Assembly (NCBI RefSeq): GCF_000308215.1
Contig: NZ_CAJE01000022.1
Span: forward strand, 1 to 34,288
Reading direction: 5' to 3'
DNA from: Methanomassiliicoccus luminyensis B10
Lineage (GTDB): Archaea; Thermoplasmatota; Thermoplasmata; Methanomassiliicoccales; Methanomassiliicoccaceae
Length of the DNA: 34,288 bases
Positions 5,601 through 29,770 of this stretch are shown here, piece after piece. The position numbers and the translations under genes were made by a program. The notes below the pieces were generated by a model. It was not told the DNA's origin. It searched no databases and worked only from the letters and a program-made list of their open reading frames with translations. Numbering within the stretch: the first letter of the stretch is position 1; each line of letters starts with the position of its first letter.

Positions 5601-6564
5601 CCTGCCGCTGGACACCTACAAGCAGCAGCACCGCGGGGGGCAGGGTCTGCTGGGCATGGAGACCAAGGAGGAGGACGAGGTGGTCGACCTGTTCGTCACC
5701 ATGACCCACAACTACATCATGTTCTTCACCAACAAGGGCCGGGTGTACGTCCTCAAGGCGTACCGCATACCCGTGGCCGGCCGGCACTCCAAGGGAAAGC
5801 CGATCATCAACCTCCTGCCCAAGCTGGAGGAGGGCGAGAGGGTGGAGGACAATATGGCCTTTGACAAGTTCGACGACCGCTACGACCTGGTGTTCGCCAC
5901 CCGGAACGGCATCGTCAAGCGCACCGCCCTCCGGGAGTACCGCAACATCCGTTCCAACGGCATCATCGCCATCAGCCTGGAGGATGGCGACTCCCTCGTC
6001 GACACCAAGCTGGTGGAGCCGGGCGCGGAGATCGTGCTGGCCACCCGGAGCGGCCAGGCGGGGAGGTTCGACGCCTCCGAGATACGGTCGGTAGGGAGGC
6101 AGGCCATCGGGGTCATCGGCATGCGCATGGAGGACGGCGACGAGATCGTCAGCATGGCCGTGGTGAGGCCGGAGGACAAGCTCCTTAGCATCACCGAGAA
6201 CGGGTACGGGAAGATCTCGCGCGTGTCCGATTACCGGAAGACCCACCGCGGCGGGAAGGGGGTCATAACCATCAAGACCACCGACCGCAACGGGCCCGTA
6301 GTGTCGGTAAGGGCCATCTCCGACGGCGACCAGATCATCCTCACCACCCAGCAGGGCAAGGTCATCCGCGTCCCCGCGGAGGAGATACGCACCATGGGCC
6401 GCTCCACGCAAGGAGTTACCATCATGGACCTCTCCGACGGCGACAAGATCACCGCCGTGGCCCGCCTGGTCGGCGCCAAGGAGCAGCTGATGGTCGCCCG
6501 GACCGAGTCGAAGGAGGACCTCAGCGTGCTGCCCGTCGGAGGGGACGACCCCGCCGAGGAGTGA
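2638..6564 (+). CDS. gyrA: DNA gyrase subunit A, intein-containing precursor
   Basis: DNA breakage-reunion subunit of gyrase. The precursor is 1308 aa; without the 461-aa intein it is 847 aa, the usual GyrA size. The N-terminal winged-helix/tower part shows [34 protein letters not shown] and [10 protein letters not shown] with the catalytic Tyr594 of the precursor (Tyr133 after splicing). The C-terminal DNA-wrapping beta-pinwheel carries a GyrA-box-like QHRGGQG at 997-1003, slightly off the QRRGGKG consensus, and a second THRGGKG in a later blade. A wrapping domain of this kind favours gyrase over topoisomerase IV. A good ribosome site (GAGGTGAT) begins 13 bases before the ATG, overlapping the end of gyrB. 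A GC hairpin follows the stop codon. Confidence 0.97.
2887..4269 (+). other. GyrA intein with LAGLIDADG homing endonuclease and atypical splice residues
   Basis: Residues 84-544 of the GyrA precursor, inserted between RVVGE and [10 protein letters not shown], the same neighbourhood as the mycobacterial GyrA intein. It begins with Cys84 (CFVAGTRVL) and ends with Asn544 before Cys+1. Two dodecapeptide motifs mark a LAGLIDADG-type endonuclease: [12 protein letters not shown] (Asp210) and [12 protein letters not shown] (Asp321). Block B reads ATPSQKF, with Gln146 where His is usual, and the C-terminus is Ala-Ser-Asn, with Ser543 in place of the usual penultimate His. Parts of it are visibly more AT-rich than the surrounding gyrA, consistent with more recent arrival than the GyrB intein. 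Whether splicing is fast is uncertain. Confidence 0.95.
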
Positions 6565-8674: not shown

Positions 8675-11600
8675 ATGGATACGCGAGGTTTCGGTGGGTT
8701 CATGACGGGTCGAGTTCTCCTCAACCGAGCGGCAAGCATACTGATAGCGACAGCTCTTCTGCTTACACCATTCACAGGCATACTGTTGTTCGCGGGGACG
8801 GGCGGAGCGCAGGCCCTGCCTTCGGAATATTCCAACGGGGACCGCATCATCGGTTCCGGTTATGACACACCGACCTGGGAGATCACCACCGAGACCTACA
8901 TGAACGGGAACTTGACGATCAAGGAAGGCGGCGTGGTGGTCGTTGACCACGGCAGCCTGGTATTCTCTCAGACCCTCGGTCATGACGGGGTCGTCAGCGC
9001 GGACGACTTCATCTATACCCTCACCATCGAGGACGGCGGCAAGCTCATCCTCAAGAACTCCACCCTTACTACGCGGCTGAACAACCTTAATGCGTTCCCC
9101 AGCCTCGGCGTCTACGTCCATAACGGAAGCTCGCTCGAAGCTTACGACTCGACCCTTAGATTCCCCGGCCACCTCGTTGTCGAGGACTCCGCCCTGACCC
9201 TGTGGAGGTCCACCATCGAAGGCCATGACACCGATTTAATTGAGCGATACTGCGACCCTACGATCTTCCCCGCCGGTGAGTTCGACGATGCCCCTGTGAT
9301 GTTATTAGTTGACGCCACGGTGAACCTGTACGACTCATATCTGAGAGATATCTACGAGCCCGAAACATATGACGCCCCCATTCCCAACCTCGCTCCGGTG
9401 TATGATTACGACTATCCATTCGCTTCTGACACATACAACCTCGACGGCACCAGGAGTGCGGTCGCCTATACGCTCGATTCGGGGAGTAGGACTCTTTCCA
9501 CTTACAAGAGCGTGACCCTGGCCGGCAACACGAACCTGACCTCGGTCAACACCTACATTGGGGTCGATTTTTCGCCTGACCCTTACCGGCACAACAATAT
9601 GGTGCTTCTGGACAACTCCAAGGCATATATCTACGGTCTCACCGTGGATGAGTCACAAGACCCTAAGGACTATACTCGCGAGCCTGCGTTCGTGACGGTC
9701 GAAACCACGTTCGAGGCGGACGTTACGGCTCGGGGATCTAGCGACACCACGACGAATCAACCAATCTCCAATGCAACAGTATATGATGGCAATTATTACG
9801 TGATTAAAATGGGCCAGATACTGAACCTTAATCAGTTTGATACGGGAGGTTCAGCAGGCAGAATCAATGGCGCAACTTTGAATTTCCAATATACTACTGC
9901 ATATCCCTATGGTGGAGATAGTTATGTTCAATGGGCTCTGAATGGCGAGAGCTTTGTGAATACGAATATCCAGGTTACCCAAGTCGATGGATTGACTAAC
10001 GTCACATACGATTTGTATCAGAATGGGGAAGGAGCGATTTCGATAGAGGATATAAAACGCATTGCCATCCAAGTAATCAATGACGCCACTGCATCTTCAC
10101 ATGATATCTATGTGGATAGGATCTGGATCGAGGTCACTCTAGCCCCCACTGTCTACATATATCGGTGGGCCAACGTGACCGCCCTCGACGACCAGGGCAA
10201 CTCGGTGATCGGCGCAGAAGTATCCGCGAAGTTGCAGGACCCCTACGGCGAGATTGCTTACTACGTCACCCCGGGCGGTGTGCAGAGCGCTCCTTCCGAT
10301 GATGTGATGAGGTACCTCGGCATCGATCCCTCCTCCTTCACTGCCTGGGTGACCGGGAACGACGGCAAGGTGACGATCCCCTATCTTTCCGAGATAATCG
10401 ACGCGCGCAACCCCAATCCCTACAAGAACCCGTCATACAACCTGACGGTCAGCTTCACCGACGACAGCGACGGTGCGACATACTACAACTATGTCGGCCT
10501 CCCATTCGAAAGGTACCCCGACCTGGTCGGTACCGGAATGTTCGTCCAGCTGCCGGTCTACCTGATCAACCTGATATTCCTGCCCGACCTGTACGTTGCA
10601 TCGGAGGACATGGCATTCAGCGATGCTACCGCATCGACCGAGGCCACCGCGAGGATCACTGTCCACAACTCGGGCGCCGTAGCGGCCAAGAACGTGGTCG
10701 TCGAGATATATGCCGGTAACAGGAGCACCGGCGGACAGCTTCTCAGTACAACGACGATCTCGGTCCCTGCCCACTCCTCTCTGGAGGCAGTACTGGTGTG
10801 GATCCCTGAGGAGATAGGCAACTATCCCATCTACGTCTACGTCAACCCCGACAGGACCGTACAGGAATCCAGGTACAGCAATAACAACGCATTCAAGAAC
10901 GTCACCGTGTCCATAGAGCTGGGCGATTCCGACCTCGTGATCGGGGGCACCTCGCAGTTCCAGGATCTGGTCTTCTACACGCCCCTGAGCCCGACCACCA
11001 ATGTGATCGTGACCACGGGCGGCAAGCTCACCTTCGTGGGCACCCAGTTCGCCATGAGGCAGAACGGAAACCTGAACGTGGTCGTGGAAGGCAACGGCCA
11101 GCTCCGCTTGCTGGATGGATCGACCATGACCTCGACCGGCAGCATCGGCCTGGTCCTGTTCGACACCGCTCGCCTGGAGATCGTGAGGTCTAGCATAGCG
11201 GCGGAGGTAAGCATATTCGCGTACGGCGAATCCGTGGTCGATGTGACCGAGTCCGCGGTCAGCTCCGAGCTGAGCGCCCCGGCCACCTCCAGCATGCATC
11301 TGGCAGCGGTCAACTCCACCTTCTCCGCGGTGACCCTGGCCAATACGTCAACGGCCGCGCTCACCAATGTGGACATCATCATATTCAGCGTGCAGGACTC
11401 GGCATATGTCGAGTACTACCGGTGGGTGGAGGTCACCGTCGTGGACGGCAGGGGCGCCATAGTGGAAGGCGCCGATGTCTCCATCAGCCGGATGTATGCC
11501 GCCATAACGCCGGCGCATGGCGCGGAGAAGCTCTCCGGTGCCACCGGCATTGACGGTACGGTCATGCTCCTGGTGCTGTCCGATGTGATAACCAGCAGCC

Positions 11601-13663
11601 CGGCGACCACCCGCAGCGCGGGCGTTTACTTGGTGACGGTGTCATTCGAAGCCCCCGACGGGGTGACCTACTACGGGGCCAGCAACGACGTGATAAACGT
11701 GCCCGCGTACGTTCGCGGCGCCTCTCTCACTTCCGGAGTGGTAACGCCCACCAACGCCGATGGGTCCGAGAGATACCTCGCGCTGGAGGGATGGGAGCCT
11801 GAACTTGACCCGGCCAATCTCTCAGTATCCAGCCTGCGCTTCACCCCGACCGGTTCCGTGCAGGTCGGCGCCACCGTATCCATTCTGGTGGACATAACAA
11901 ACCATGGGGAGAGCGATTCCAACGAAGCTCAGATCCTGCTCTACGTGGACGGCGTGGCCGTTCCCACCGCCGCGAGGCCTGTGCCAGGAGGCATAGGGGC
12001 CGGGGATACGATCACTGTCAGCACTACCTGGACGGCAAGCGTGCCTCTCGGCTCCAGGGATGTCCTGAGGGTCATCACCGTCGAGGTCGTCCCCGGCTCC
12101 GGCGATTCCGCCAGCGATGACGAGGAGCAAGGGACCATCAGAGTCCTGGACTCCCGCCCCGACGTGGTGTTCCTCGGCAACATCCAGGTGATGAAGTCCC
12201 AGAAGGCCGTGACCAACGCTACGGCCGGTGAAAAGGTGACCATCTCCGCCACCGCCGCCACTTCCTCCGGCTCACCCACCGCCTATGCGATGAAGTTCTA
12301 CTTCTTCGTGGTGAACGAGACCGGCGTCCGCACTCTGATCCACGTGACCAACAGCATGGACGTGAAGAACACCGATATCGTGGCGCTTTCCTACACCTGG
12401 ACCATCAATGTCACTACCGGCGACTACGACATAGAGGTCGTGGCCAACTACGACGGCACCATTGATGAGAGCAGGACCGACAACAACGTGATCAGCACCG
12501 CCTTCGAGGTGAAAACGCCCGATCCGTATGTCACTCTCAATATTCCGTACGGCCAGACCTACAAGCCCGGCGAAACCATCTTCGTCAGCGGCACGGTCAC
12601 CAACAAGAACACCAACGCCGCCATAAACGGGGCGACGGTGTCGGTCAGCCTGTACAGGAACGGTGTGATTGTAGACAACGGCCCATTCACCCAGAAAACG
12701 GGTTCGGACGGCAACTTCTACATAGCGGTCCACATCCCCGAAGGGAGCGAGGACGGCACGTACGAGATCCGCGTCACCGCGGACGTCAACGGCAAGACCT
12801 TCGACCAATACGACCAGGCCACCGTGAAGGCCGCGGCCGAGGGAGGCGCCCCCTGGTGGCTCTACGTCATCATATTGGCGTTCGTCTCCGCGGTCATTCT
12901 GATCTTCTCCGCGTACCTGTACAAGTATGGCCTGGGGAAGATGGTGGAGTGCGGCGAGTGCGGCGCTCTGATACCCGACTCGTCCAAGCGCTGCCCCAAG
13001 TGCGGGGTGGAGTTCGAGACCGGCACCGCCAAGTGCAGCAAGTGCGGCGCCTGGATCGCCGCGAACTCGGTCTCCTGCCCTGACTGCGGCGCCAAGTTCA
13101 TCACCGAGGCCGTCGAAGAAGAGGAGAACGAGTACCTCAAGAGCATGAGGGAGCAGTACGAGGCCTTCGTCGACACGTACCGTGAGGAGGCCAAGAAGGT
13201 CCTCGACAAGAAGTACTCCGACGCCAAGTTCCCCGACTGGTGGAAGAAGCAGGCCTCTTACGTGACCTTCGAGACCTGGCTGTCCCAGGAGGAGGACAAG
13301 CGCAAGATCGGCGGTGTGGCCTGCCCGACCTGCGGCATACTGAACCCCCGCGGCGCATCGATATGCCACAAGTGCGGCTCTCCGATGGAGGCGCCCAAGG
13401 CGGCGCCCGTGGAGCTGCCTCCTCCCGAGGAGAAGAAGCCTGAGGTGGTCCCGCAGCAGAAGCCGCTCCGGCGCATCATCCGCAGGACGGTGGAAAAGAA
13501 GCCCGCCGTGCCCATCGAGGCCAAGCCCGAGGACGCTCCCGTTTCGGACGCTCCCAAGCCCGCCGAGGCGGGGGAGGGGACCTCCAGCTCTGAGGGGCCC
13601 AAGCCTGAGGAGGCCAAGGCGGCCGAGGAGCCTAAGCCGGAAGAGGACAAACCCTCCGCTTGA
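8675..13663 (+). CDS. Giant surface protein with CARDB-type repeats, one membrane span and cytoplasmic zinc ribbons, 1662 aa
   Basis: Starts with a hydrophobic signal segment (about residues 16-45). The extracellular part has a beta-rich region of short strand repeats and two copies of a YYRW/IYRW-initiated Ig-like module (about 492-630 and 912-1030). CARDB-type domains follow at about 635-747, 1047-1158 and 1160-1280, recognisable by the W-x-x-x...D...ESRYSNN or DESRTDNN endings, then an Ig/MG2-like domain (about 1282-1385). A single membrane span at about 1394-1418 is followed by a cytoplasmic tail with three zinc ribbons (from Cys1426, about 1450 and 1550), a helical stretch and a Pro/Glu-rich end. 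CARDB is an adhesion-type module. ATG 8702 is an alternative start. Residues about 342-488 come from DNA clearly more AT-rich than the flanks. A role at the cell surface linked to the pilus operon is inferred. Confidence 0.88.
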   Translation: MDTRGFGGFMTGRVLLNRAASILIATALLLTPFTGILLFAGTGGAQALPSEYSNGDRIIGSGYDTPTWEITTETYMNGNLTIKEGGVVVVDHGSLVFSQTLGHDGVVSADDFIYTLTIEDGGKLILKNSTLTTRLNNLNAFPSLGVYVHNGSSLEAYDSTLRFPGHLVVEDSALTLWRSTIEGHDTDLIERYCDPTIFPAGEFDDAPVMLLVDATVNLYDSYLRDIYEPETYDAPIPNLAPVYDYDYPFASDTYNLDGTRSAVAYTLDSGSRTLSTYKSVTLAGNTNLTSVNTYIGVDFSPDPYRHNNMVLLDNSKAYIYGLTVDESQDPKDYTREPAFVTVETTFEADVTARGSSDTTTNQPISNATVYDGNYYVIKMGQILNLNQFDTGGSAGRINGATLNFQYTTAYPYGGDSYVQWALNGESFVNTNIQVTQVDGLTNVTYDLYQNGEGAISIEDIKRIAIQVINDATASSHDIYVDRIWIEVTLAPTVYIYRWANVTALDDQGNSVIGAEVSAKLQDPYGEIAYYVTPGGVQSAPSDDVMRYLGIDPSSFTAWVTGNDGKVTIPYLSEIIDARNPNPYKNPSYNLTVSFTDDSDGATYYNYVGLPFERYPDLVGTGMFVQLPVYLINLIFLPDLYVASEDMAFSDATASTEATARITVHNSGAVAAKNVVVEIYAGNRSTGGQLLSTTTISVPAHSSLEAVLVWIPEEIGNYPIYVYVNPDRTVQESRYSNNNAFKNVTVSIELGDSDLVIGGTSQFQDLVFYTPLSPTTNVIVTTGGKLTFVGTQFAMRQNGNLNVVVEGNGQLRLLDGSTMTSTGSIGLVLFDTARLEIVRSSIAAEVSIFAYGESVVDVTESAVSSELSAPATSSMHLAAVNSTFSAVTLANTSTAALTNVDIIIFSVQDSAYVEYYRWVEVTVVDGRGAIVEGADVSISRMYAAITPAHGAEKLSGATGIDGTVMLLVLSDVITSSPATTRSAGVYLVTVSFEAPDGVTYYGASNDVINVPAYVRGASLTSGVVTPTNADGSERYLALEGWEPELDPANLSVSSLRFTPTGSVQVGATVSILVDITNHGESDSNEAQILLYVDGVAVPTAARPVPGGIGAGDTITVSTTWTASVPLGSRDVLRVITVEVVPGSGDSASDDEEQGTIRVLDSRPDVVFLGNIQVMKSQKAVTNATAGEKVTISATAATSSGSPTAYAMKFYFFVVNETGVRTLIHVTNSMDVKNTDIVALSYTWTINVTTGDYDIEVVANYDGTIDESRTDNNVISTAFEVKTPDPYVTLNIPYGQTYKPGETIFVSGTVTNKNTNAAINGATVSVSLYRNGVIVDNGPFTQKTGSDGNFYIAVHIPEGSEDGTYEIRVTADVNGKTFDQYDQATVKAAAEGGAPWWLYVIILAFVSAVILIFSAYLYKYGLGKMVECGECGALIPDSSKRCPKCGVEFETGTAKCSKCGAWIAANSVSCPDCGAKFITEAVEEEENEYLKSMREQYEAFVDTYREEAKKVLDKKYSDAKFPDWWKKQASYVTFETWLSQEEDKRKIGGVACPTCGILNPRGASICHKCGSPMEAPKAAPVELPPPEEKKPEVVPQQKPLRRIIRRTVEKKPAVPIEAKPEDAPVSDAPKPAEAGEGTSSSEGPKPEEAKAAEEPKPEEDKPSA

Positions 13664-16641: not shown

Positions 16642-17556
16642 TCAGAACGTCGACTCCTTGGTCATATTCCAGATCACGAACGTGAAGCCGAACTGGCACA
16701 TCGGGATCATCAGCAGTATGACCATCTCCAGCAACAGCACCGTCGTGGACGAGCTGCCTCCTCCGCCGGGCACTATGGCCATGATGGCCATGATGACCAC
16801 CAGGAACAGGGGGAACGCCACCACCACGGTGACGAACGATTCGGCCAGAAGTCCGATGGACTCCATCTGCGACCGCATCTCCAGCTTTCCTTCCTTCTCG
16901 TACTGCTCCGCCTTCTGCAGGAAGTAGGGCTTCAGCTGTCCGCCGGAGGTCGAGGTCGTCACCACGCCCTGCAGGAACTCCTGGAACTTGGTGGACGGGC
17001 TTCTCTGCGCGGCCATCTTGACGGCCGTCAGGATATCGATGCCCAGCAGATCGGTGTCCCTGGTGATCCATTCCGCCTCGTTCTTGATCTCGCCGTAAAT
17101 GTCCTGCTTGGCCAGCTCCTTGAAGATGACGTCCACGTTGACGTCGGCCGACGCCATTGCGGAGATGAAGCTCATGGCCGGGCCGATGCGCTTGTTGATG
17201 TCGCGCATCCTGGCCTTGGCCTTGGTGCCCGGCATCGCCGACATGACCATGTAGGTCAGCAGCGGGGGCATCATGACGATCATGACGAAGAAGACCATCA
17301 CCATGCCCGCCGCCACGTGGAGAAGGCCCAGAAGAACGCCGCCGAACAGCAGGGCGACGGCCAGCGAGCCGGCGAACACCAGGAAGGTGGTCATCCACAC
17401 GTAGGCGAGGTACTCCTCCGGCCTTATGCGCAGGTGCGCCTGCAGCAGCTGCTGCTCCAGCTTGGGGTTGGGCTTGGCGTTCAGCTTCACCATCTTGCCC
17501 ATCACGCGCCAGGAGAGCATCTGGTAGTTGGTCAGCTCGATATAGTCCGGGAGCAC
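16642..17556 (-). CDS. TadC/FlaJ-like pilus platform protein A, 304 aa or longer
   Basis: Second platform protein of the GspF/TadC type. It shows two N-terminal spans (about residues 50-75 and 80-105), a cytoplasmic domain (RIGPAMSFISAMASADV, then TSTSGGQLKPYF) and two C-terminal spans split by a GGGGSSS linker. The first conventional start is GTG 17556, but it lacks a ribosome site. The frame stays open upstream to a TAG just inside the preceding gene, and the extra residues (Lys/Ser/Thr-rich, then ERIGPHLIKLPAG) look like real protein. There is no ATG, GTG or TTG in that extension; the only candidate is CTG 17673, which follows a purine-rich GGAAGGGGGG site by 7 bases. The true product may therefore have 343 aa. 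It lies downstream of ATPase A. Confidence 0.83.
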   Translation of the reverse strand: MLPDYIELTNYQMLSWRVMGKMVKLNAKPNPKLEQQLLQAHLRIRPEEYLAYVWMTTFLVFAGSLAVALLFGGVLLGLLHVAAGMVMVFFVMIVMMPPLLTYMVMSAMPGTKAKARMRDINKRIGPAMSFISAMASADVNVDVIFKELAKQDIYGEIKNEAEWITRDTDLLGIDILTAVKMAAQRSPSTKFQEFLQGVVTTSTSGGQLKPYFLQKAEQYEKEGKLEMRSQMESIGLLAESFVTVVVAFPLFLVVIMAIMAIVPGGGGSSSTTVLLLEMVILLMIPMCQFGFTFVIWNMTKESTF

Positions 17557-17662
17557 CCCGGCGGGCAGCTTGATCAGGTGCGGCCCTATCCTCTCGGCAT
17601 CGGTCCTCTTGGTCTTGGTGTACGATTTCTTGGAATCGAACTTGGAGAACGCGTCGGATACC

Positions 17663-19411
17663 TCAGGCGCCAGTCTCTATCCCCCCTTCCTGTAGTTCCT
17701 TGCGCACCTTAGTGATGGTCCTCTCCGGGTTCTTGCAGTAGTGATTGATGAGCTCCCAGATCTTGTGGTGGTCCACGATGTCCCGGTATACCAGGTACTT
17801 GATGATGTCCACCCTGCGCTCGAACTCGGCGGTCATCTCCTCGTGGGTGAGGTTCTTCATTTCCATGATCTTGTCGAACAGGAAGCTGTGGCCCTTGAAG
17901 ATGAAGCGGTCGGTGGCCTGGTCCCACTCGTACACGGTGTTGGATATCAGCTCGTTGGTGTCCGGCTCGAACCCCACGATCTCGATGACCTGCTTCATCC
18001 GCCTGGTGAGCTCCTGCCCCACCCTCACCTGGGACTGGATGATGACGTTGCGCAGCGCGGTGAGAAGTATGCGGGGGCAGTTGATGGGCTGGTTCTCCAG
18101 CCTGTTGACCATCGACTGCACCGAGTCGGCGTGCATGGTGGAATAAGTGGTATGGCCGGTGGCCATGGCCTGGAACATGGTGTACGTTTCTTTGCCTCGG
18201 ACCTCCCCGACGATGATGTAGTTGGGGCGCTGCCTCAGCGAGGCGCGCATGAGGTCGTACATGTCTATCTCGCCCGGGGCCTTGCCGTCCGGGCCCCTCT
18301 CCCCCACCCCGGACCTGGTGGTGCCGGGGATCCAGTTCTGGTGGGGGAGGTTGATCTCCCTGGTGTCCTCCATGGTGACGATCTTGGCACCGGGGGGTAT
18401 GAACAGCGAAATGGAGTTCAGCGTGGAGGTCTTCCCCGAAGCGGTCCCGCCGCAGATGATCATGGACTCGCCGTTCTCCACGCCGAGCCAGAAGTACGCC
18501 ACCATCTCCGGGCTGGCCGTTTTCCCTTTGACCAGGTCCACCGGGGTGAAGGGCTTCTCCTTGAAGCGCCTGATGGTGAAGGTGGAGCCTTTGGTGGTGA
18601 CCTCGCGGGAATACGTCGCCTGGATACGATGGCCTTCCGGGGAGGTGCCGTCCAGGATGGGGTTGGACACCGAGATCTGCTTACCACCTCTCTGGCCGAG
18701 AGAGACCACGTAGGAGTTCAGGGCGTCCTCGTCATCGAACATCAGGGCGGTCTTGAGGCTGCCGTACTTGCGGTGGTATACGAACAGGGGGATGTTCACT
18801 CCGTCGCAGGAGATATCCTCGATCTGCTCGTCGCGCATCAGGATGTCCACCTTGCCGTAGCCGACGAAGTCGCGCAGGATGTAGTACTTGAGCTTCTTCT
18901 TAAGCAGCGGGTTGACCTTGGCGCCCCTGCTCTTGATGTACGACTCCACGCTCTCGGAGAGGTACTCCCTCTTGTCCAGGCTGGTGAACTTGTCCCACTC
19001 GTAGCTGAGGGTGCGGCCCAGGGTGTCCTTGATCAGCGCCAGGAGCTTCTGGTCCTCCGCGTTGAGCCTCGGCTCCAGAGCTTCCAGGTAATACTCGCTG
19101 GTCTCGTTGTTGTAAGTGATGCGGGTGTAGCTGTAGGGTTCCAGGACCGGGTACACCTCCACCGTCTCCACGGCGGGGTCATCGATCTTGGGTATCTCGG
19201 TGACGGCGGAGCCGTGGCCCTTGGACCACTCGATGCGCTGGGCCACCTCGTGGGCGGACAGCATGACCCTGGAGGCTCTGCGGGGCATCGCCCGGCGGAC
19301 CACTTTGAGGTAGCCGTCCCTGACCGCGCCGGCCATGGTCGCTCCCTCGGGAGCGTCATCTGGCATTTGCGTCTTGGTCTTCTTGCTGGGTTTGGGTTCG
19401 GCCGCTTGCAT
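17663..19411 (-). CDS. Type II/IV secretion (FlaI/TadA-like) ATPase A, 582 aa
   Basis: Secretion ATPase of the FlaI/TadA group. The N-terminal region (TEIPKI near 72; LEPYSYTRITY) is shared with ATPase B. Conserved signatures include LRDFVGYGKVD, HRKYGS, STFTIRRF, Walker A GGTASGKT at 321-328, Asp box TMEDTREI, Walker B IIVGEVRG and His box GHTTYSTMHAD. Start ATG 19411 lies 9 bases after the pilin-like gene, with GAGGTTGA as ribosome site. The first ~45 residues are basic and Pro/Lys-rich, unlike ATPase B. Two full motors in one operon could serve extension and retraction, or act as a heteromer; the sequence does not decide. Both keep all catalytic motifs, so neither looks like a degenerate copy. 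Confidence 0.92.
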   Translation of the reverse strand: MQAAEPKPSKKTKTQMPDDAPEGATMAGAVRDGYLKVVRRAMPRRASRVMLSAHEVAQRIEWSKGHGSAVTEIPKIDDPAVETVEVYPVLEPYSYTRITYNNETSEYYLEALEPRLNAEDQKLLALIKDTLGRTLSYEWDKFTSLDKREYLSESVESYIKSRGAKVNPLLKKKLKYYILRDFVGYGKVDILMRDEQIEDISCDGVNIPLFVYHRKYGSLKTALMFDDEDALNSYVVSLGQRGGKQISVSNPILDGTSPEGHRIQATYSREVTTKGSTFTIRRFKEKPFTPVDLVKGKTASPEMVAYFWLGVENGESMIICGGTASGKTSTLNSISLFIPPGAKIVTMEDTREINLPHQNWIPGTTRSGVGERGPDGKAPGEIDMYDLMRASLRQRPNYIIVGEVRGKETYTMFQAMATGHTTYSTMHADSVQSMVNRLENQPINCPRILLTALRNVIIQSQVRVGQELTRRMKQVIEIVGFEPDTNELISNTVYEWDQATDRFIFKGHSFLFDKIMEMKNLTHEEMTAEFERRVDIIKYLVYRDIVDHHKIWELINHYCKNPERTITKVRKELQEGGIETGA

Positions 19412-19420
19412 CGTTCAACC

Positions 19421-20365
19421 TCACGTGGTGAGCATCTTCATTTCCATCTGGGCCCGGTTGTAGTTCACTTCTGTCACTTTGTAAAGAGTAAGGGTGATGG
19501 TGGTCACTCTGTCCGTCGACGCGCTGGGAGAATCGGATGGTGACAGGTCATAGTCTACGCCATCCCCGACCAGTTTCTTCTCGCTAAGGTAGTCCTTGAG
19601 ATATTGGTGCCACGCCGCGCCGTATACTGTAGTTATGGTCAGCTGCAGCGTGCCACTGCTCCCCGCCCCCCAGGTGTACTTTTGAGAGTCGACATACACC
19701 AGGTCCAGGCTGAACCCCACCGCGTCGGAGCCGGTGACGGATTGGCTCGCTCCGATGAGGTCTATCTCGGTGAAGTCCACGTTGATGTTCCCGCCGACCT
19801 TGCTGATGTCCAGGTTGGGCTTGGCCTTGATGGACTGTCCGTCATCCTGCTTGAGTATGATGGCGCCGTTCTCGTAGCAGATCCATTGCGGCACATAATA
19901 GCGGTTGGGGACGTACAGGTCCGCCCTCCCCCCGCCGGTCGAATTGATGAGAGCGCCGGACACCGGGTCGGTAAATCGGACATTGACCCCGGACGTGGAA
20001 GTTCCTTGAGGAACGTATGACAAGAGGCCCACGGTGGCCGTGGCGAAGAGCGGCACGCCCTCGGAGCCGAGCTTGACGGGGGCGAACATGTTGATGGAAT
20101 AGTCCCCGCTGCCGCCCTGCTGCAGGGTCATGCTGTCCACATTGTTCTTGAGCTGACCGAACTGGTCGATGACCTGGTTCATGTGCGAACGTTCGTTGTC
20201 CATCATCCAGGCCGGCACGTAGGAGTTGGTGATCAGGGCCATGAACGCTATGAACACCATGAGGGCCATGATGGTGCCCACTGTGGACGCCACCCCTTGC
20301 TTGTCCTTCTTCAGAAACGAGGCCCTCTTCGACCTGTTCAGGGCCCTATGTTGCACTGGTCCCAT
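19421..20365 (-). CDS. Type IV pilin-like protein with class III signal peptide, 314 aa
   Basis: First gene of the pilus operon. A basic N-terminus (NRSKRASFLKKDKQG) precedes a 20-residue hydrophobic stretch beginning VASTVGTIMALMVF, the layout of archaeal class III signal peptides processed by a prepilin peptidase, with cleavage likely after Gly24. The rest is a beta-rich extracellular domain (Asn, Ser, Thr and Tyr-rich) with no cysteine cluster. At 314 aa it is larger than typical archaeal major pilins and resembles the larger pilin/archaellin-like proteins of Thermoplasmata, so it may be a minor or tip subunit or an anchoring pilin. No prepilin peptidase is visible in the window. The ATG at 20365 gives the full basic region; the internal GTG codon 20356 is a weak alternative. 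Confidence 0.78.
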   Translation of the reverse strand: MGPVQHRALNRSKRASFLKKDKQGVASTVGTIMALMVFIAFMALITNSYVPAWMMDNERSHMNQVIDQFGQLKNNVDSMTLQQGGSGDYSINMFAPVKLGSEGVPLFATATVGLLSYVPQGTSTSGVNVRFTDPVSGALINSTGGGRADLYVPNRYYVPQWICYENGAIILKQDDGQSIKAKPNLDISKVGGNINVDFTEIDLIGASQSVTGSDAVGFSLDLVYVDSQKYTWGAGSSGTLQLTITTVYGAAWHQYLKDYLSEKKLVGDGVDYDLSPSDSPSASTDRVTTITLTLYKVTEVNYNRAQMEMKMLTT

Positions 20366-24105: not shown

Positions 24106-24115
24106 CTATTATATT
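24106..24115 (+). promoter_or_regulatory. Promoter of the SipW/TasA-like cluster
   Basis: ACTATTATAT, preceded by a purine-rich GAAATAGGA that could be the BRE, lies about 90 bases before the first gene. The AT-rich 24020-24120 region contrasts with most intergenic sequence here. Confidence 0.45.
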
Positions 24116-24147
24116 GAACATCTGTTATCACCCCCAAGACTGAGTCA

Positions 24148-24166
24148 ACTATCGGGATTCGATAGT
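24148..24166. repeat. Inverted repeat in the leader of the SipW/TasA-like cluster
   Basis: ACTATCG and CGATAGT are perfect 7-bp arms with a GGATT loop, about 35 bases after the proposed TATA box and 36 before ATG 24202. It could be an operator for a dimeric regulator or an RNA hairpin in the leader. Confidence 0.5.
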
Positions 24167-24201
24167 CCGATTCACAAACGATCCGCAGGAGGAATCATTT
24201 A

Positions 24202-24840
24202 ATGGAAACGAGAAAAATTGCCATAGGCATATTGGCGATAGGCATAGTCGCGGCCCTCTCGGGCGGCATGATCTACGCCTATTTCACCGATAGTGACAAA
24301 TCCGAAAATAACGAATTTACTGCTGGAAAATTATTTCTGCAGCTTAACGACGGTGTGACCAAGACCGTAACTCCGGCTCTCGGCACTTTTGACAACATGC
24401 AGCCCGGTGATAGTGATACTGGAAGCATTACCGTAAAGAACGCGGGGACCGTCGATGGCTATGTTACCTTTAAATTCAGCGACTTTGGCGAGACAGACGG
24501 TCTTCCCACTGAAGTAGATGGAACAGATCTACCGGATCCTTCAAAGCCGCAAACCCTAGGCGGTAATCTGGGTACCGTAATTACTGTGAAATATGGTGAT
24601 GGCGGAAGCAAGACCGTAGAGTTGGGAGATGACTTTTTTACCACTATAATGGCTGAGATAGAGGATGATGAGTACCACTTTGCCCTGCCTGCCGGTGAAT
24701 CCCTCACAATAGAGATTTCGTGGTCGATAGCTACCTCTGTAGGGAACGAGATCCAAGGGGACTCGCTATCTTTTGATATCGAATTCACGCTGACCCAATC
24801 AACTCATAACTCTCTCCCACCTGAGATCAATTCGTGGTAA
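24202..24840 (+). CDS. TasA/camelysin-like secreted protein with SipW-type signal, 212 aa
   Basis: The N-terminus has a short basic start, a hydrophobic segment (IAIGILAIGIVAALSGGMIYA) and then YFTDSDKSENNEFTAGKL, the hallmark of SipW-dependent signals in TasA, TapA and camelysin. The mature part is a beta-sandwich with the family patterns MQPGDSDTGSITVKNAGTVDGYV and LPAGESLTIEISW, ending in GDSLSFDIEFTLTQS. Members form extracellular matrix fibres or are metallopeptidase-like (M73) surface proteins; no HExxH metal site is visible, so a structural role is more likely. It has the strongest ribosome site in the cluster (AGGAGG, 9 bases before the ATG) and its own promoter, in line with high expression. 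The processing peptidase is the next gene. Confidence 0.85.
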   Translation: METRKIAIGILAIGIVAALSGGMIYAYFTDSDKSENNEFTAGKLFLQLNDGVTKTVTPALGTFDNMQPGDSDTGSITVKNAGTVDGYVTFKFSDFGETDGLPTEVDGTDLPDPSKPQTLGGNLGTVITVKYGDGGSKTVELGDDFFTTIMAEIEDDEYHFALPAGESLTIEISWSIATSVGNEIQGDSLSFDIEFTLTQSTHNSLPPEINSW

Positions 24841-24873
24841 GAGCTTATATGACGGGGCAATCGTGCAGGAAAA

Positions 24874-24893
24874 CCCTTTCCCTTTCCATTTTT
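24874..24893 (+). terminator. Pyrimidine tract between the TasA-like and SipW-like genes
   Basis: CCCTTTCCCTTTCCATTTTT is an almost pure C/T run ending in T5, directly before the AGGAGG of the next gene. It may cause partial termination and so lower peptidase expression relative to the fibre subunit. Confidence 0.35.
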
Positions 24894-24904
24894 AGGAGGA
24901 TCGA

Positions 24905-25432
24905 ATGATGAACAAGAGGCTAAGCCAGCTCGGCACCGTGGTCGTGGTCGTACTGTTAGCGATAGCGCTGACAGGCCTTCTCGCTCCCATATTCGGATAC
25001 CGCCTCGACGTGGTGCAATCTGGAAGCATGGAGCCGAATATCGGGGTCGGCGATCTGGTAATAACGGCTCCAGAGGAGTTCTCCGATATCCGTACAGGCG
25101 ACGTCATATCGTTCCGCTCTCCCGACAACGGAGTGTTGATCTGCCACCGGGTCGTGGGCGTGGATGAGAGCAACAGCACCCTTCAGACAAAGGGCGATGC
25201 CAACGAGGACAACGATCCCTATGTTCTCAAAGAACAGCACGTGGTCGGCAAGGTGGTCGCGAACATCCCGCTGATGGGATATGCGGTCGATTTCCTCAAG
25301 ACCCCCTTCGGGTGGGCCGTCATAATAATGCTCTTCGCGCTGGTCCTGGTTATGGGCAATGACAAAGGCGCCAAGGGCGGGAAGGACAGCGATAGTAGCG
25401 CTGTCGAAACCACAAAGAAGGACGATGCATGA
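24905..25432 (+). CDS. SipW-like (ER/archaeal-type) signal peptidase I, 175 aa
   Basis: Membrane serine protease that removes signal peptides outside the membrane. An N-terminal span (about 11-30) is followed by box B with the catalytic serine (SGSMEPNI, Ser41), box D with His81 in place of bacterial Lys (GVLICHRVVG), and box E with Asp98/Asp104 (TKGDANEDND). The Ser-His type is that of archaeal, ER and Bacillus SipW peptidases. A second span (about 138-158) precedes a charged cytoplasmic tail. Two adjacent ATG codons (24905, 24908) both fit the AGGAGG site. Its position between two genes with SipW-type signals makes them its likely substrates. The stop overlaps the next start by ATGA, so the downstream gene is translationally coupled. 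Confidence 0.92.
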   Translation: MMNKRLSQLGTVVVVVLLAIALTGLLAPIFGYRLDVVQSGSMEPNIGVGDLVITAPEEFSDIRTGDVISFRSPDNGVLICHRVVGVDESNSTLQTKGDANEDNDPYVLKEQHVVGKVVANIPLMGYAVDFLKTPFGWAVIIMLFALVLVMGNDKGAKGGKDSDSSAVETTKKDDA

Positions 25433-28068
25433 GCCAGCGAAACGTCGTCCTTGCAGTCGCTACATTATTGACCGTGATGGCGGTGAGCGACAGCGGGACC
25501 TTTGCGATATTCTATGACACCGAATCCTCGATGGGCAATAGGTTCACCGCATGGAGTTTCCATGGGTGGGTTCAGAGCACCGGGGACGACTTCACTTTGG
25601 GGACGACAGGCTCCAACGTGGACACAACGACCAGCCCGGGCGATGTATCTCTAAGTAGAGGAGATGCCGCTCAATGCCTGTTTGCCTTCGGAGGCGGAGG
25701 CTCAGCAGGCTTCTATCGTTACGATGTCCAATCCAATGCCTGGGCCACCATGGCCAGCGCCCCTGAGGGGGTGACTGACGGCGCCGCCCTGGCCTATGAT
25801 CAGGACCGATACATCTACGCCATCCGCGGCGGAGGTCACAGCGACCTATGGAGATACGATGTCCAGAGCAACTCGTGGGAGTCCCTGGCCTCTGCACCCG
25901 GACCGGTAGGAAGCGGCGGCGATCTGGTATACGATGACGGCGTACTATACGTCCTCCAGGGCGGCGGCAACACCGGCCTGTGGACTTACGACATTGCCGC
26001 CGAGAGCTGGACAACATTAAGCAGCACTCCTTCCGGAGTGAGCAGCAATGGTGCTCTGGCATCATATCAGGGCACCCTATACGTCATGCGCGGCAGCGGC
26101 ACCCTGACGATCTGGACCTTCCACGACGGGACCTGGTCCAGCCTTAATTTCCCGGAGCAGTGGCTCACCACCGGGATGGACATGTTCCTGAGGGCGGACG
26201 GAAAACTGGTCATCCTCTGGTTGAACGGGAACCAGGGATGCGGCTACATCTATGACATTCAATCGAAGACCTGGACCCGCGAATCGTCGCTGGACCTCGG
26301 CACGAACATACAGGACGGCATCGACCTCGCCTTCGACGGTAGCTACATCTACGCGCTTCAGTCGCTGGATGCGGGCGGATACTGGGGCCCTTTCTGGAGA
26401 TACGTCCCCAACAGCGGCTGGTGGTCATGGGGGGACCTTGCCAAGAAACTGCCCGGCGCGGTGGGCTCCGGCGCGTGCCTGGTCAGCGCGACGGCGGGCG
26501 GCGACCATGCCACTCCGGGGGTCTTGATATCCTCGGTATTCGATGCCGGCAGCACCTTCGTCAAGTACACTGCGCTGTCCTGGAGCGCGATCCTTCCCTC
26601 CGGGACGGAGATACGTTTCGAGGTCAGGGCGGCGGATACAGAAAGCGAACTGGAGAATGCTGCATGGATTCCCGTGAACGGCTCGTCATCCCCGATCAGC
26701 GACCTCTTCGGCCGCTATGCGCAGTGGAAGGCCACCCTTACCACCGCCGATCCGACTCGGACCCCGGTGCTCCAGGAGGTCATACTGTACTACATGCAGT
26801 CCCCCAGGAGCTGGGTCCAGACCACCTATGCTGACTTCAGCTCGGGGTCCTGGTCCAATATCGACATCACCACCAGCCCCGGCTCCGCGATGCTGACCGC
26901 AGGGACCGCGGGCCAGTACATCTTCGCCTTCCAGGGCGGGGGCTCTGCGGCCTTCCACCGCTACAACGTGGCTTCTGACACCTGGACCGCCATGACCGCC
27001 GCTCCCGGGGCAGTTACGGACGGCGCCGCCCTGGCCTATGACCATGGCAGGTACATCTATGCCCTGCAGGGAGGGTCCAGCGCACTGTGGAGATATGATA
27101 TGGTACAGAACTCCTGGGCCGTCCTGGGGAATGCGCCCGGGATAGTGGGCAGCGGCGGCGATCTGGTATACGATGACGGCGTACTATACGTCCTCCAGGG
27201 CGGGGGAGGCACCGGCCTGTGGACGTACGACATAGCTGATGGCGAGTGGTCGACGGCCATCAATACGCCCGCCGGGGTAGGTGCCGGCGGTGCCATGGTA
27301 TCATATCAGGGCACCCTGTACGTCATGCGCGGCGGCGGTACCTTGGGCATATGGGCATACCACGGCGGAACCTGGTCAAGCCTGAACTTCCAGGAGCAGT
27401 GGCTTGTCTCCGGCTCAGACATGGTGCTGGGGCCGAACGGGAAGCTGTACACGTTCTGGCTGAACGGGAACCAGGGCTGTTGCTACATCTATGATCCTCA
27501 GCTGAAAACCTGGAACAGGGAATCGACATTGGATTGGGGTACGAACATACAGGACGGCATCGACCTCGCCTTCGACGGTAGCTACATCTACGCGCTTCAG
27601 TCGACGGAGACCCCGGGGTCCTGGTGGGGCCCATTCTGGAAATGTGACCTTGGCAGTGGTTGGTGGGCTTGGGGCGGTATCGCCAAGAAACTTCCCGGCA
27701 CGGTAGGTCCCGGCGCAAGCCTGGTCAGCGTGACCTCGGGGGGACAATACCACACCCCCGGCGTCCTGACCTCATCAACATTCGACACCGGGACCGACGG
27801 GGCGGGATACGGCACGCTGTCATGGACCGCGACATTGCCGCCCGGCACCGCCGTCCGGTTCGAGATAAGGGCTTCCAACACCTTGGTATCAGGCCAGCCC
27901 GATGCTGAATGGACCCCGGTGAGCGATCCGAGCTCCTCCTTGAGCTCCATCTCCGGCCGGTACGTGCAGTGGAGGGCCATCCTGACCACCGATGAGACAA
28001 ATCAAACGCCGATCCTCCATGAGGTCAAGCTCCAATACGTGGGCTGGGACCGTGGGAATGGGACATAA
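25429..28068 (+). CDS. Secreted propeller-like protein with SipW-type signal and two ~413-aa repeats, 879 aa
   Basis: The N-terminus (VVLAVATLLTVMAVSDSGTFAIFYDTESSMGNRFTAW) carries the SipW-type motif, like the TasA-like protein. The rest is two tandem copies of one module of about 413 aa, from WVQS and WVQT respectively. Each has about five Kelch-like blades marked by GGG...YRYDVQSNAW, LWRYD, LWTYD and YIYD sequences, followed by a beta-sandwich end (RFEVRAADTES..., RYAQWKATL). Kelch-type propellers bind proteins or sugars. No membrane anchor is visible, so the mature protein is probably secreted or attached to the matrix. The start overlaps the peptidase gene by 4 bases and the end overlaps the next gene by 11. 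Function as matrix component or adhesin is inferred. Confidence 0.85.
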   Translation: MSQRNVVLAVATLLTVMAVSDSGTFAIFYDTESSMGNRFTAWSFHGWVQSTGDDFTLGTTGSNVDTTTSPGDVSLSRGDAAQCLFAFGGGGSAGFYRYDVQSNAWATMASAPEGVTDGAALAYDQDRYIYAIRGGGHSDLWRYDVQSNSWESLASAPGPVGSGGDLVYDDGVLYVLQGGGNTGLWTYDIAAESWTTLSSTPSGVSSNGALASYQGTLYVMRGSGTLTIWTFHDGTWSSLNFPEQWLTTGMDMFLRADGKLVILWLNGNQGCGYIYDIQSKTWTRESSLDLGTNIQDGIDLAFDGSYIYALQSLDAGGYWGPFWRYVPNSGWWSWGDLAKKLPGAVGSGACLVSATAGGDHATPGVLISSVFDAGSTFVKYTALSWSAILPSGTEIRFEVRAADTESELENAAWIPVNGSSSPISDLFGRYAQWKATLTTADPTRTPVLQEVILYYMQSPRSWVQTTYADFSSGSWSNIDITTSPGSAMLTAGTAGQYIFAFQGGGSAAFHRYNVASDTWTAMTAAPGAVTDGAALAYDHGRYIYALQGGSSALWRYDMVQNSWAVLGNAPGIVGSGGDLVYDDGVLYVLQGGGGTGLWTYDIADGEWSTAINTPAGVGAGGAMVSYQGTLYVMRGGGTLGIWAYHGGTWSSLNFQEQWLVSGSDMVLGPNGKLYTFWLNGNQGCCYIYDPQLKTWNRESTLDWGTNIQDGIDLAFDGSYIYALQSTETPGSWWGPFWKCDLGSGWWAWGGIAKKLPGTVGPGASLVSVTSGGQYHTPGVLTSSTFDTGTDGAGYGTLSWTATLPPGTAVRFEIRASNTLVSGQPDAEWTPVSDPSSSLSSISGRYVQWRAILTTDETNQTPILHEVKLQYVGWDRGNGT
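25567..26811 (+). repeat. Tandem module repeat, copy 1
   Basis: First of two coding repeats in the propeller-like gene. It contains 25912-25964 and 26302-26364, which are identical in DNA to 27151-27203 (53 bases) and 27541-27603 (63 bases) of copy 2; both pairs are offset by exactly 1239 bases. Confidence 0.9.
26812..28056 (+). repeat. Tandem module repeat, copy 2
   Basis: Second copy, beginning with the Trp-Val-Gln that also opens copy 1. Blades three and five are closest to copy 1 at the DNA level, including silent positions, while the ends have diverged. Confidence 0.9.
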
Positions 28069-29770
28069 TAAGGCGATGCGGCATCTTGCGGGGGCCGCGC
28101 TGCTCCTATCGATGATGCTGTTCCTTTCCGCCCTGCCGTCGACCCCGGCGAAGGTTGCCGATGTCCCGTCGGTGCGCCTCTCCCTGGGCGGCCAAGGGAG
28201 CGTGCCCTGGTCCATGGAAGCGATCAAGCCGGGCGATCACGGCACCGAGGTGACGGTGCTGCAGAACACCGGGAGCAAGGACGGGACCGTTCTGCTGTGG
28301 ATCAGCAACATCAAGGAGACCGACGCCGCCGGGGACGGAGCGTTCCTGGGCCAATACATGAGGTTCAGCATCGACGCCGAGGGCCTGTGCACGGAGGCGC
28401 GGTTCCCGTGCACGATATACGAGCTGCCGGAGTACCCGTCGAGCAGCAGCAAGATCATTATAAGGTCGCTCCCCGCGGGAAGCTCCGTCACGATCCACTG
28501 GACCTGGGAGTTCTTGGAGACCGGCGCTCCCCAGAACGAGGCCCAGGGGGACGGCCTGAGCTTTGATATAAACTACCTGCTCTACGAGCCGCCGCCGGCC
28601 GGTGAGGACTACCAGTGGATATGGATGGAGATCCTCGGCCTGGGGGCGGTGGTGGGGATGAACTCCACCGGGCACGTGGTGGAGACGGTCCAGGTCACTG
28701 ACCCGTCGGGGGCGTTCCGCCTCACTATCCCCAAGGGGACCAGGGTCGTCACCGAGGGAGGGCAGCTCCCCTCAGCCATCATCATGACGACCGATGCCGG
28801 GGCCGGGGGAGCGGTCCCGGACGGATGGACGAAGGTGGGGCCGGCCTACGTCCTCAGCGGTTATCTGGAAGGCACCGGGACGGTAAACGTCCTCTTCATA
28901 GGCCAGGTAGGCCTGACCTTGGGTTTGGACCCTTCCACCGTGCCGGAGGGCACCAGGATGACGTCCATGTTCATGCTGGCCGCGGACGGCCAGTGGGCGA
29001 TGGTTAGCGGGTCCTCCACCATGACATCCAGTTCCTGGGAGGCCTGGGGGATCATCGGCCGCACCGGCACCTATACCATCCTGGCCAGCGAGAACGCCTC
29101 GGACCACGCCTTCATCGAGGCCAGGGACCTGACGGTACGGCCGGGGACCTCGGAGCTATGGTGGCCGGTGGTCCTGGCGACCTCGACCGGCAAGACCGTG
29201 TCGGTAGGCGCCACACTAACCAATCACGGCGACGTCGTCGGGAACATCACCATCTCGCTGTTCGTGGACGGCGAGGTCATGGGGTCGGCGACGGTCACGC
29301 TGCTTCCGGGAGAGAGCCGCGAGGTCGTCCTCACGGCGGACGGGCTTCGTGACGGCGATCACCAGGTCAGGATGGCCGGCCTCACCAGCTCGTTCCGGAC
29401 GGAATCTACGATCAATTGGCCGGCCATAGTTCTCGTCGCGGCGGCGTCATGGTCCCTGCTGATGCTGATGGCCGCCAAGCTGGGCCGCTCCCGTCCGGAA
29501 GTGCCAGAAGCGATGATGGCGGACCGCAAGGACCGCGTGCTTGTGGAGCTGGGGTCCCGCGACCTGTCCTTCGAGGAGCTATCTCAACGGACCCGCCTCG
29601 AGGATGATGATCTCCTCCAGGCCCTGGAGGTCCTGTGGAAGGAAGGCCGTCTCGGGGCGGAGAGGAGGGACCATATCATCTATTTCATGAGGCCGGACGG
29701 CCCGACGGCCGATACGGCGGGCGATGATCTCAATACGTCTCGTACCTCAGGCCCAGGGAGGGGAGCGTGA
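28058..29770 (+). CDS. Membrane protein with extracellular TasA-like and CARDB-like domains and cytoplasmic winged helix, 570 aa
   Basis: A signal segment (about 7-25) is followed by a TasA-like domain (about 35-185) with the same patterns as the first gene of the cluster: VTVLQNTGSKDGTVLLW, LPAGSSVTIHWTWEF and GDGLSFDINYLLYEP. A middle region (about 190-370) is unassigned; a CARDB-like domain follows (about 372-450, VGATLTNHGDVVGNITISLFVDG), then a membrane span (about 452-475). The cytoplasmic end (about 487-548, LVELGSRDLSFEELSQRTRLEDDDLLQALEVL in part) has the helix pattern of a winged helix-turn-helix. It lacks the SipW-type cleavage motif, so it may stay membrane-bound. Start ATG 28058 overlaps the previous gene by 11 bases; ATG 28076 is an alternative. 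A one-component sensor-regulator of the matrix genes is inferred. Confidence 0.83.
   Translation: MGHNKAMRHLAGAALLLSMMLFLSALPSTPAKVADVPSVRLSLGGQGSVPWSMEAIKPGDHGTEVTVLQNTGSKDGTVLLWISNIKETDAAGDGAFLGQYMRFSIDAEGLCTEARFPCTIYELPEYPSSSSKIIIRSLPAGSSVTIHWTWEFLETGAPQNEAQGDGLSFDINYLLYEPPPAGEDYQWIWMEILGLGAVVGMNSTGHVVETVQVTDPSGAFRLTIPKGTRVVTEGGQLPSAIIMTTDAGAGGAVPDGWTKVGPAYVLSGYLEGTGTVNVLFIGQVGLTLGLDPSTVPEGTRMTSMFMLAADGQWAMVSGSSTMTSSSWEAWGIIGRTGTYTILASENASDHAFIEARDLTVRPGTSELWWPVVLATSTGKTVSVGATLTNHGDVVGNITISLFVDGEVMGSATVTLLPGESREVVLTADGLRDGDHQVRMAGLTSSFRTESTINWPAIVLVAAASWSLLMLMAAKLGRSRPEVPEAMMADRKDRVLVELGSRDLSFEELSQRTRLEDDDLLQALEVLWKEGRLGAERRDHIIYFMRPDGPTADTAGDDLNTSRTSGPGRGA

Follow-up and report, generated by a model that had tools for sequence, protein, structure and literature searches.

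A predicted TasA-type fiber cassette in Methanomassiliicoccus luminyensis, with donor-strand roles putatively divided among three proteins

Four close-packed genes of Methanomassiliicoccus luminyensis, a cultured human-gut methanogen with a 26-contig draft genome (PMC4153887), raise the question of what a TasA-like protein, a signal peptidase, a propeller protein and a membrane protein joining an outer TasA-like domain to an inner winged helix might build together, and of whether the winged helix belongs to the system as its regulator. A first-pass annotation, made from the DNA letters, had read the locus as an archaeal matrix module that carries peptidase, substrates and a candidate regulator. 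TasA fibers, the signal peptidase SipW and archaeal relatives of TasA are already known. Here we analyze the window, which is the whole of contig 22 (34,288 nt) of the 2.62-Mb genome, and compare its gene cassette with related loci in archaeal and bacterial genomes.

Gene content of the cassette

The four plus-strand genes, here termed T, S, K and M in their order, occupy positions 24202-29770, with an intergenic spacing of 64 nt between T and S, -4 nt between S and K and -11 nt between K and M. Their features are as follows.

24202-24840, plus strand: T, TasA/camelysin-like fiber subunit of 212 aa with predicted donor strand and acceptor body (PF12389, TIGR04088)
24277-24324, plus strand: predicted SipW-type cleavage region and donor strand of T, AYFTDSDKSENNEFTA (TIGR04088 match, invariant residues)
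24905-25432, plus strand: S, archaeal/SipW-type signal peptidase of 175 aa with a transmembrane segment at each end (TIGR02228, SipW model)
25025-25027, plus strand: Ser41 codon of S, SGSMEP motif (invariant in 9 homologs)
25145-25147, plus strand: His81 codon of S, CHRV motif (invariant in 9 homologs)
25196-25198, plus strand: Asp98 codon of S, GDxN motif, candidate third catalytic residue (invariant in 9 homologs)
25429-28068, plus strand: K, predicted secreted donor-only protein of 879 aa, a tandem pair of Kelch propeller and beta-sandwich units (Kelch_6, 1e-18)
25507-25551, plus strand: donor-strand-type motif of K, IFYDTESSMGNRFTA (TasA profile positions 2-56, E 2.5e-5)
about 28058-29770, plus strand: M, with signal peptide, TasA-like acceptor, middle beta domain, CARDB, transmembrane helix and winged helix (domain searches, AlphaFold2)
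28169-28585, plus strand: TasA-like domain of M, predicted acceptor without donor strand (TasA profile positions 43-194, Foldseek)
29114-29413, plus strand: CARDB Ig-like domain of M (PF07705, 1.1e-4, 22.8 bits against a cut-off of 22.7; AlphaFold2 strands 353-452)
29417-29485, plus strand: C-terminal transmembrane helix of M (hydropathy; AlphaFold2 helix 454-476)
29507-29689, plus strand: winged-helix domain of M, predicted cytosolic (AlphaFold2 H-H-H-E-E, Foldseek)

T passes the cut-offs of both the Pfam Peptidase_M73/camelysin model (PF12389; E 7.5e-13, 49.2 bits, cut-off 22.5) and the SipW-dependent signal model (TIGR04088; E 7.1e-7, 29.2 bits, cut-off 19), and its residues A26, Y27, F28, D30, N37 and G42 are invariant across 12 homologs. 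The T family profile matches the solved TasA fiber 8aur (6.3e-5) from chain residue 2, donor strand included, and weakly matches AbpX (0.018). Against the B. subtilis TasA equivalog (NF046066) T scores 21.2 bits, under the cut-off of 450, and these scores place it in the TasA fold family and not among TasA orthologs. Peptidase activity, as the Pfam name "M73 metallo-endopeptidase" would suggest, was set aside, the matrix protein TasA being of the same fold family.

The same pattern holds for S, which passes the archaeal/ER-type signal peptidase I model (TIGR02228; 7.5e-30, 103.9 bits, cut-off 51.85) and falls under the cut-off of the Bacillus SipW equivalog (NF046067; 2.6e-25, 89.1 bits, cut-off 190), as a relative of SipW by sequence and not its ortholog. 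Asp98 may complete the catalytic site formed by Ser41 and His81. Since the genome encodes a second, distant signal peptidase candidate (359 aa, contig 17), the housekeeping role need not fall to S.

The two halves of K are 63% identical across 410 aa (71% in DNA), which points to an origin by internal tandem duplication. The N-terminus of the window's K does not match TIGR04088, a model that two bacterial K proteins (L187 and L186) pass, nor does the protein match the TapA model TIGR04087, for which the best relative reaches E 0.048 and 13.3 bits (cut-off 80).

For M, the longest ORF runs from 27992, and an ATG at 28058 or 28076 is preferred as its uncertain start. Its outer domain stays under the Peptidase_M73 cut-off (PF12389; E 0.0095, 16.2 bits, cut-off 22.5), which the M proteins of relatives G016, G018 and G020 pass. 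Modeled with AlphaFold2 (mean pLDDT 82.9), M matches TasA 5of2 in Foldseek with probability 1.00 and a TM score of 0.52 by target length; searches with the whole model return many multi-domain chance matches, and only the high-probability local ones (TasA, CARDB/Ig) were used.

The first-pass gene calls are confirmed by these results: four tightly spaced or overlapping plus-strand genes, a TasA/camelysin-like first product, a Ser-His signal peptidase with Ser41 and His81, and a fourth product with an outer TasA-like domain and an inner winged helix. The region had been started at 24106, which takes in intergenic DNA upstream of T. For the third gene the propeller is upheld, and its SipW-type signal is recognized by the TasA profile described below and not by TIGR04088; the suggested check of the first and third products with SipW-dependent signal profiles thus succeeds for T and fails for the window's K, though relatives of K match.

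Two minor observations concern the cassette's edges. Between an AT-rich upstream stretch and T lies a 19-bp palindrome, ACTATCGGGATTCGATAGT (24147-24165), which is absent from the relatives' sequences, so the idea that it serves as an operator was dropped. At the other end, M and a convergent purM-like gene share 41 bp at their 3' ends (29730-29770), and a purM-like neighbor recurs beside M in several relatives.

Distribution of the TasA fold over T, K and M

The whole 2.62-Mb genome was searched with a TasA profile compiled from 12 T sequences and free of K and M sequences. The profile matches exactly three places, all of them in the cassette: T over profile positions 2-198 (E 1e-66), M over positions 43-194 (3.6e-11) and K over positions 2-56 (2.5e-5). 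In the alignment, the mature form of B. subtilis TasA begins at profile position 27, and its residues 28-38 constitute the donor strand inserted into the following subunit (PMC9674648). Coverage and alignment together indicate that T combines donor and body, that K holds the donor part only and that M holds the body only, and on this reading of the profiles the cassette is defined by a division of donor-strand roles among T, K and M.

The split is kept in relatives. M matches in other genomes begin at profile positions 39-46 (one row covers only 43-96), and the donor motif is absent from all 19 M proteins inspected, each of which has an A-x-A-like site followed within a few residues by the first body strand; donor-motif matches in M such as "VIDLE" were rejected because they are that body strand itself. 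Wherever the C-terminus of M is visible, it carries a transmembrane segment. Conversely, a donor-type motif (hydrophobic-x-D-x-[E/D/T], after a hydrophobic core) is kept in 19/19 inspected K proteins, and the remainder of K varies. There are two Kelch propellers in the window and one in G132, G011, G019, G010 and others; G016, G018 and G020 lack the propeller, and L072, L073 and L186 carry DUF2341 modules in its place. Roughly half of the K proteins (L035, L037, L038, L040, L041, L042, L043, L071, L072 and L073) have a cysteine just ahead of the motif, a possible lipid or disulfide site.

Linkage and distribution in other genomes

Conserved linkage in related genomes had been set beforehand as one of two tests of the first-pass reading, and it is kept well past Thermoplasmatota. 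Besides two Methanomassiliicoccales families, M lies beside T, S and K in Methanosarcinaceae, Methanococcoides, Methanofollis and metagenome-assembled genomes of Dehalococcoidia/Chloroflexi. Where flanks are present, K adjoins M in 18/18 loci, S is present in 16/17 and T in 16/16; this tally was made by hand, excludes L068, whose M lacks its N-terminus, and G454, where M lies at the start of a contig, and includes G139, joined by inference across two contigs that each break inside K. The gene order is T-S-K-M, with T-S-M-K in L071 and S-T-K-M in L187 as exceptions. L186 and L189 carry extra T genes, and the extra T-like genes of G453 and G831 blur a scheme of one subunit per role. The cluster of G133 (L104) consists of T, K and M, and no TIGR02228 protein is among the matches listed for that genome; the cluster's composition implies that S is not strictly required beside the other three.

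The cassette is patchily distributed. Strong homologs of S occur in a minority of the surveyed genomes of the order, in neighborhoods with the same genes, and within the window's family S and a TIGR04088 protein occur in the same sampled genomes; the one exception is G010, where the contig breaks off beyond S. Among 400 sampled genomes of the window's class, 6 encode full-length M, as do 2 of 200 in the class of L072 and few Dehalococcoidia; when the M profile is searched across a class, most matches fall on the common CARDB and middle domains, and a match was counted only if it included the first ~180 positions. Such patchiness is suggestive of repeated loss or of horizontal transfer. The loci outside Archaea derive from metagenome-assembled genomes, and single bacterial assignments could be binning errors; for all of them this is unlikely, because several independent bacterial bins are involved.

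Two loci show signs of change. In the Methanococcoides locus (L072, 2721-9672) T and K contain in-frame stops, through decay, assembly error or recoding. The Dehalococcoidia M at L068 (3892-5507), without signal and first strands, adjoins the same regulator genes that precede the intact cassette of L065, a possible deletion of T, S and K.

A fiber model and its alternatives

We propose that the cassette builds a TasA-type extracellular fiber whose subunits, in three complementary roles, join by donor-strand exchange and are served by a dedicated peptidase, a model that we judge to have somewhat more in its favor than against it. Cleavage of the SipW-type signal peptides by S would free the N-terminal donor strands of T and K. 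K, a donor strand without acceptor fold, would start the fiber and end at its outer tip, carrying there an exchangeable binding module (in the window, the Kelch propeller). T, both donor and acceptor, would polymerize into the shaft, its N-termini pointing at the cell. M would be processed at an ordinary A-x-A site and kept in the membrane by its C-terminal helix; as an acceptor fold without donor strand, it would receive the strand donated by the final T and so anchor the fiber. The winged helix of M may, in some Methanomassiliicoccales, report or control the state of the fiber. We infer this order and polarity from the donor-strand logic of known systems, which would leave K no place but the outer start of the fiber, make T its shaft and put M at the membrane-held end; the role of the propeller as tip module is suggested by its free exchange between lineages, which would fit that position. 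TapA gives its N-terminal strand to start the TasA fiber (PMC10151520), and in monomeric TasA the groove is occupied by a strand of the same molecule, which an incoming donor then displaces (PMC9674648). If the model holds, a conserved acceptor-only membrane subunit beside a donor-only tip protein would give a concrete answer on the anchoring and direction of such fibers, and the cassette would tie archaeal and Chloroflexota surface fibers to the Bacillus biofilm system. Experiments may be possible, M. luminyensis being in culture.

The nearest known counterpart, tapA-sipW-tasA of B. subtilis, likewise combines a TasA-fold subunit with an N-terminal donor strand, a dedicated SipW-type peptidase and a donor-strand-only accessory protein. 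It differs in that TapA has an Ig domain, whereas K is a propeller or variable-module protein, and in that the cassette adds M, a putative acceptor-only membrane protein; TapA, its own fold already complete, is no such protein. SipW is also linked to camelysin-type substrates in bsaA-sipW of Clostridium perfringens. We know of no K- or M-like gene there or in the B. cereus locus sipW-calY1-bc_1280-calY2. The latter resembles the cassette in linking SipW to camelysin-type substrates (PMC10151520). Archaeal bundling pili (AbpA, Pyrobaculum) and AbpX are built from TasA-related subunits, and it is AbpX that the T profile weakly matches. The Sulfolobus thread (Saci_0406, with Saci_0405 as putative cap) is an archaeal donor-strand-complemented fiber for which a donor-only cap is proposed; the excerpted text of its description states the polarity as unknown, has ordinary signal peptidase I processing and describes no acceptor-only membrane anchor (PMC9715654). 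In the open-access literature searched, with the main bundling-pili paper outside that scope, we found no description of an acceptor-only membrane subunit or of a conserved T-S-K-M set.

The acceptor domain of M might be self-complemented, by analogy with monomeric TasA, whose residues 48-61 lie in its own groove (PMC9674648). On this basis M and K could coat or scaffold a TasA-like matrix, attaching to its side, with M having a self-filled groove and no place at the fiber end. The large extra domains of M, of a kind common in surface proteins, would suit such a role. We nonetheless find it unlikely, if worth keeping in view, given that M always begins just past the donor segment and adjoins K in every assessable locus.

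The winged helix bears on the second alternative, that M is mainly a transmembrane sensor-regulator whose outer domain binds matrix fibers and whose inner domain alters transcription of the cassette. Its fold is well predicted: AlphaFold2 gives the tail helices at 8-22, 29-36 and 40-53 and two strands, with pLDDT of about 88-90, and Foldseek relates it to HlyU/ArsR-type wHTH regulators (probability 1.00, E 7.5e-4). No Pfam regulator family scores over its cut-off, and phmmer matches to designed "Cake" proteins were ignored, as no stretch passes alone. Among tails besides the window's, four of six are clearly basic (pI 9.3-9.6) and one mildly so (8.0), as the reading would lead one to expect. 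Against it, the domain is acidic in the window (pI 4.7-4.9) and in L034 (below 5), and relatives lack the palindrome upstream of T. Moreover, it occurs in the M of G000, G016, G018, G020, G132, G133 and L067 and is absent, with the remainder of M kept, from four of 11 Methanomassiliicoccales (G011, G019, G021, G139) and from every assessable M outside that order; M of L071 has a different cytosolic tail. The winged-helix M proteins of Methanomassiliicoccales form two groups, in a tree whose deep branches have low support.

We consider the sensor-regulator reading improbable, and M better read as an acceptor-only, membrane-anchored fiber subunit than as a regulator with a TasA domain. The first-pass module is consequently well supported as a secreted-fiber module with peptidase and substrates, and not with a regulator of its own as a constant part: any regulatory part would be an accessory that some Methanomassiliicoccales carry. 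A combined version, in which M is the acceptor-only transmembrane subunit at the fiber end and the winged helix senses fiber attachment, strikes us as a rather improbable speculation; if true, it would couple surface-fiber occupancy to gene expression by direct signaling through an archaeal membrane. Finally, that the cassette is a secretion module for K as an enzyme with a galactose-oxidase-like or sialate-epimerase-like propeller would account for the Kelch/NanM-type matches of K, but is very improbable with the propeller missing or swapped for DUF2341 in several relatives that keep the donor motif.

Elsewhere in the window, gyrB (257-2626) and gyrA (2638-6564) lie side by side, each with an intein-splicing domain (PF14890), the gyrA intein with a LAGLIDADG domain too. 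Positions 8675-13663 encode a secreted or membrane protein of 1662 aa with three CARDB stretches, an MG2 domain and a zinc-ribbon tail. Near the cassette, at 16642-20365, stands a cluster that is probably type IV pilus-like:

16642-17556, minus strand: multi-transmembrane protein
17663-19411, minus strand: type II/IV secretion ATPase
19421-20365, minus strand: DUF7289-like protein
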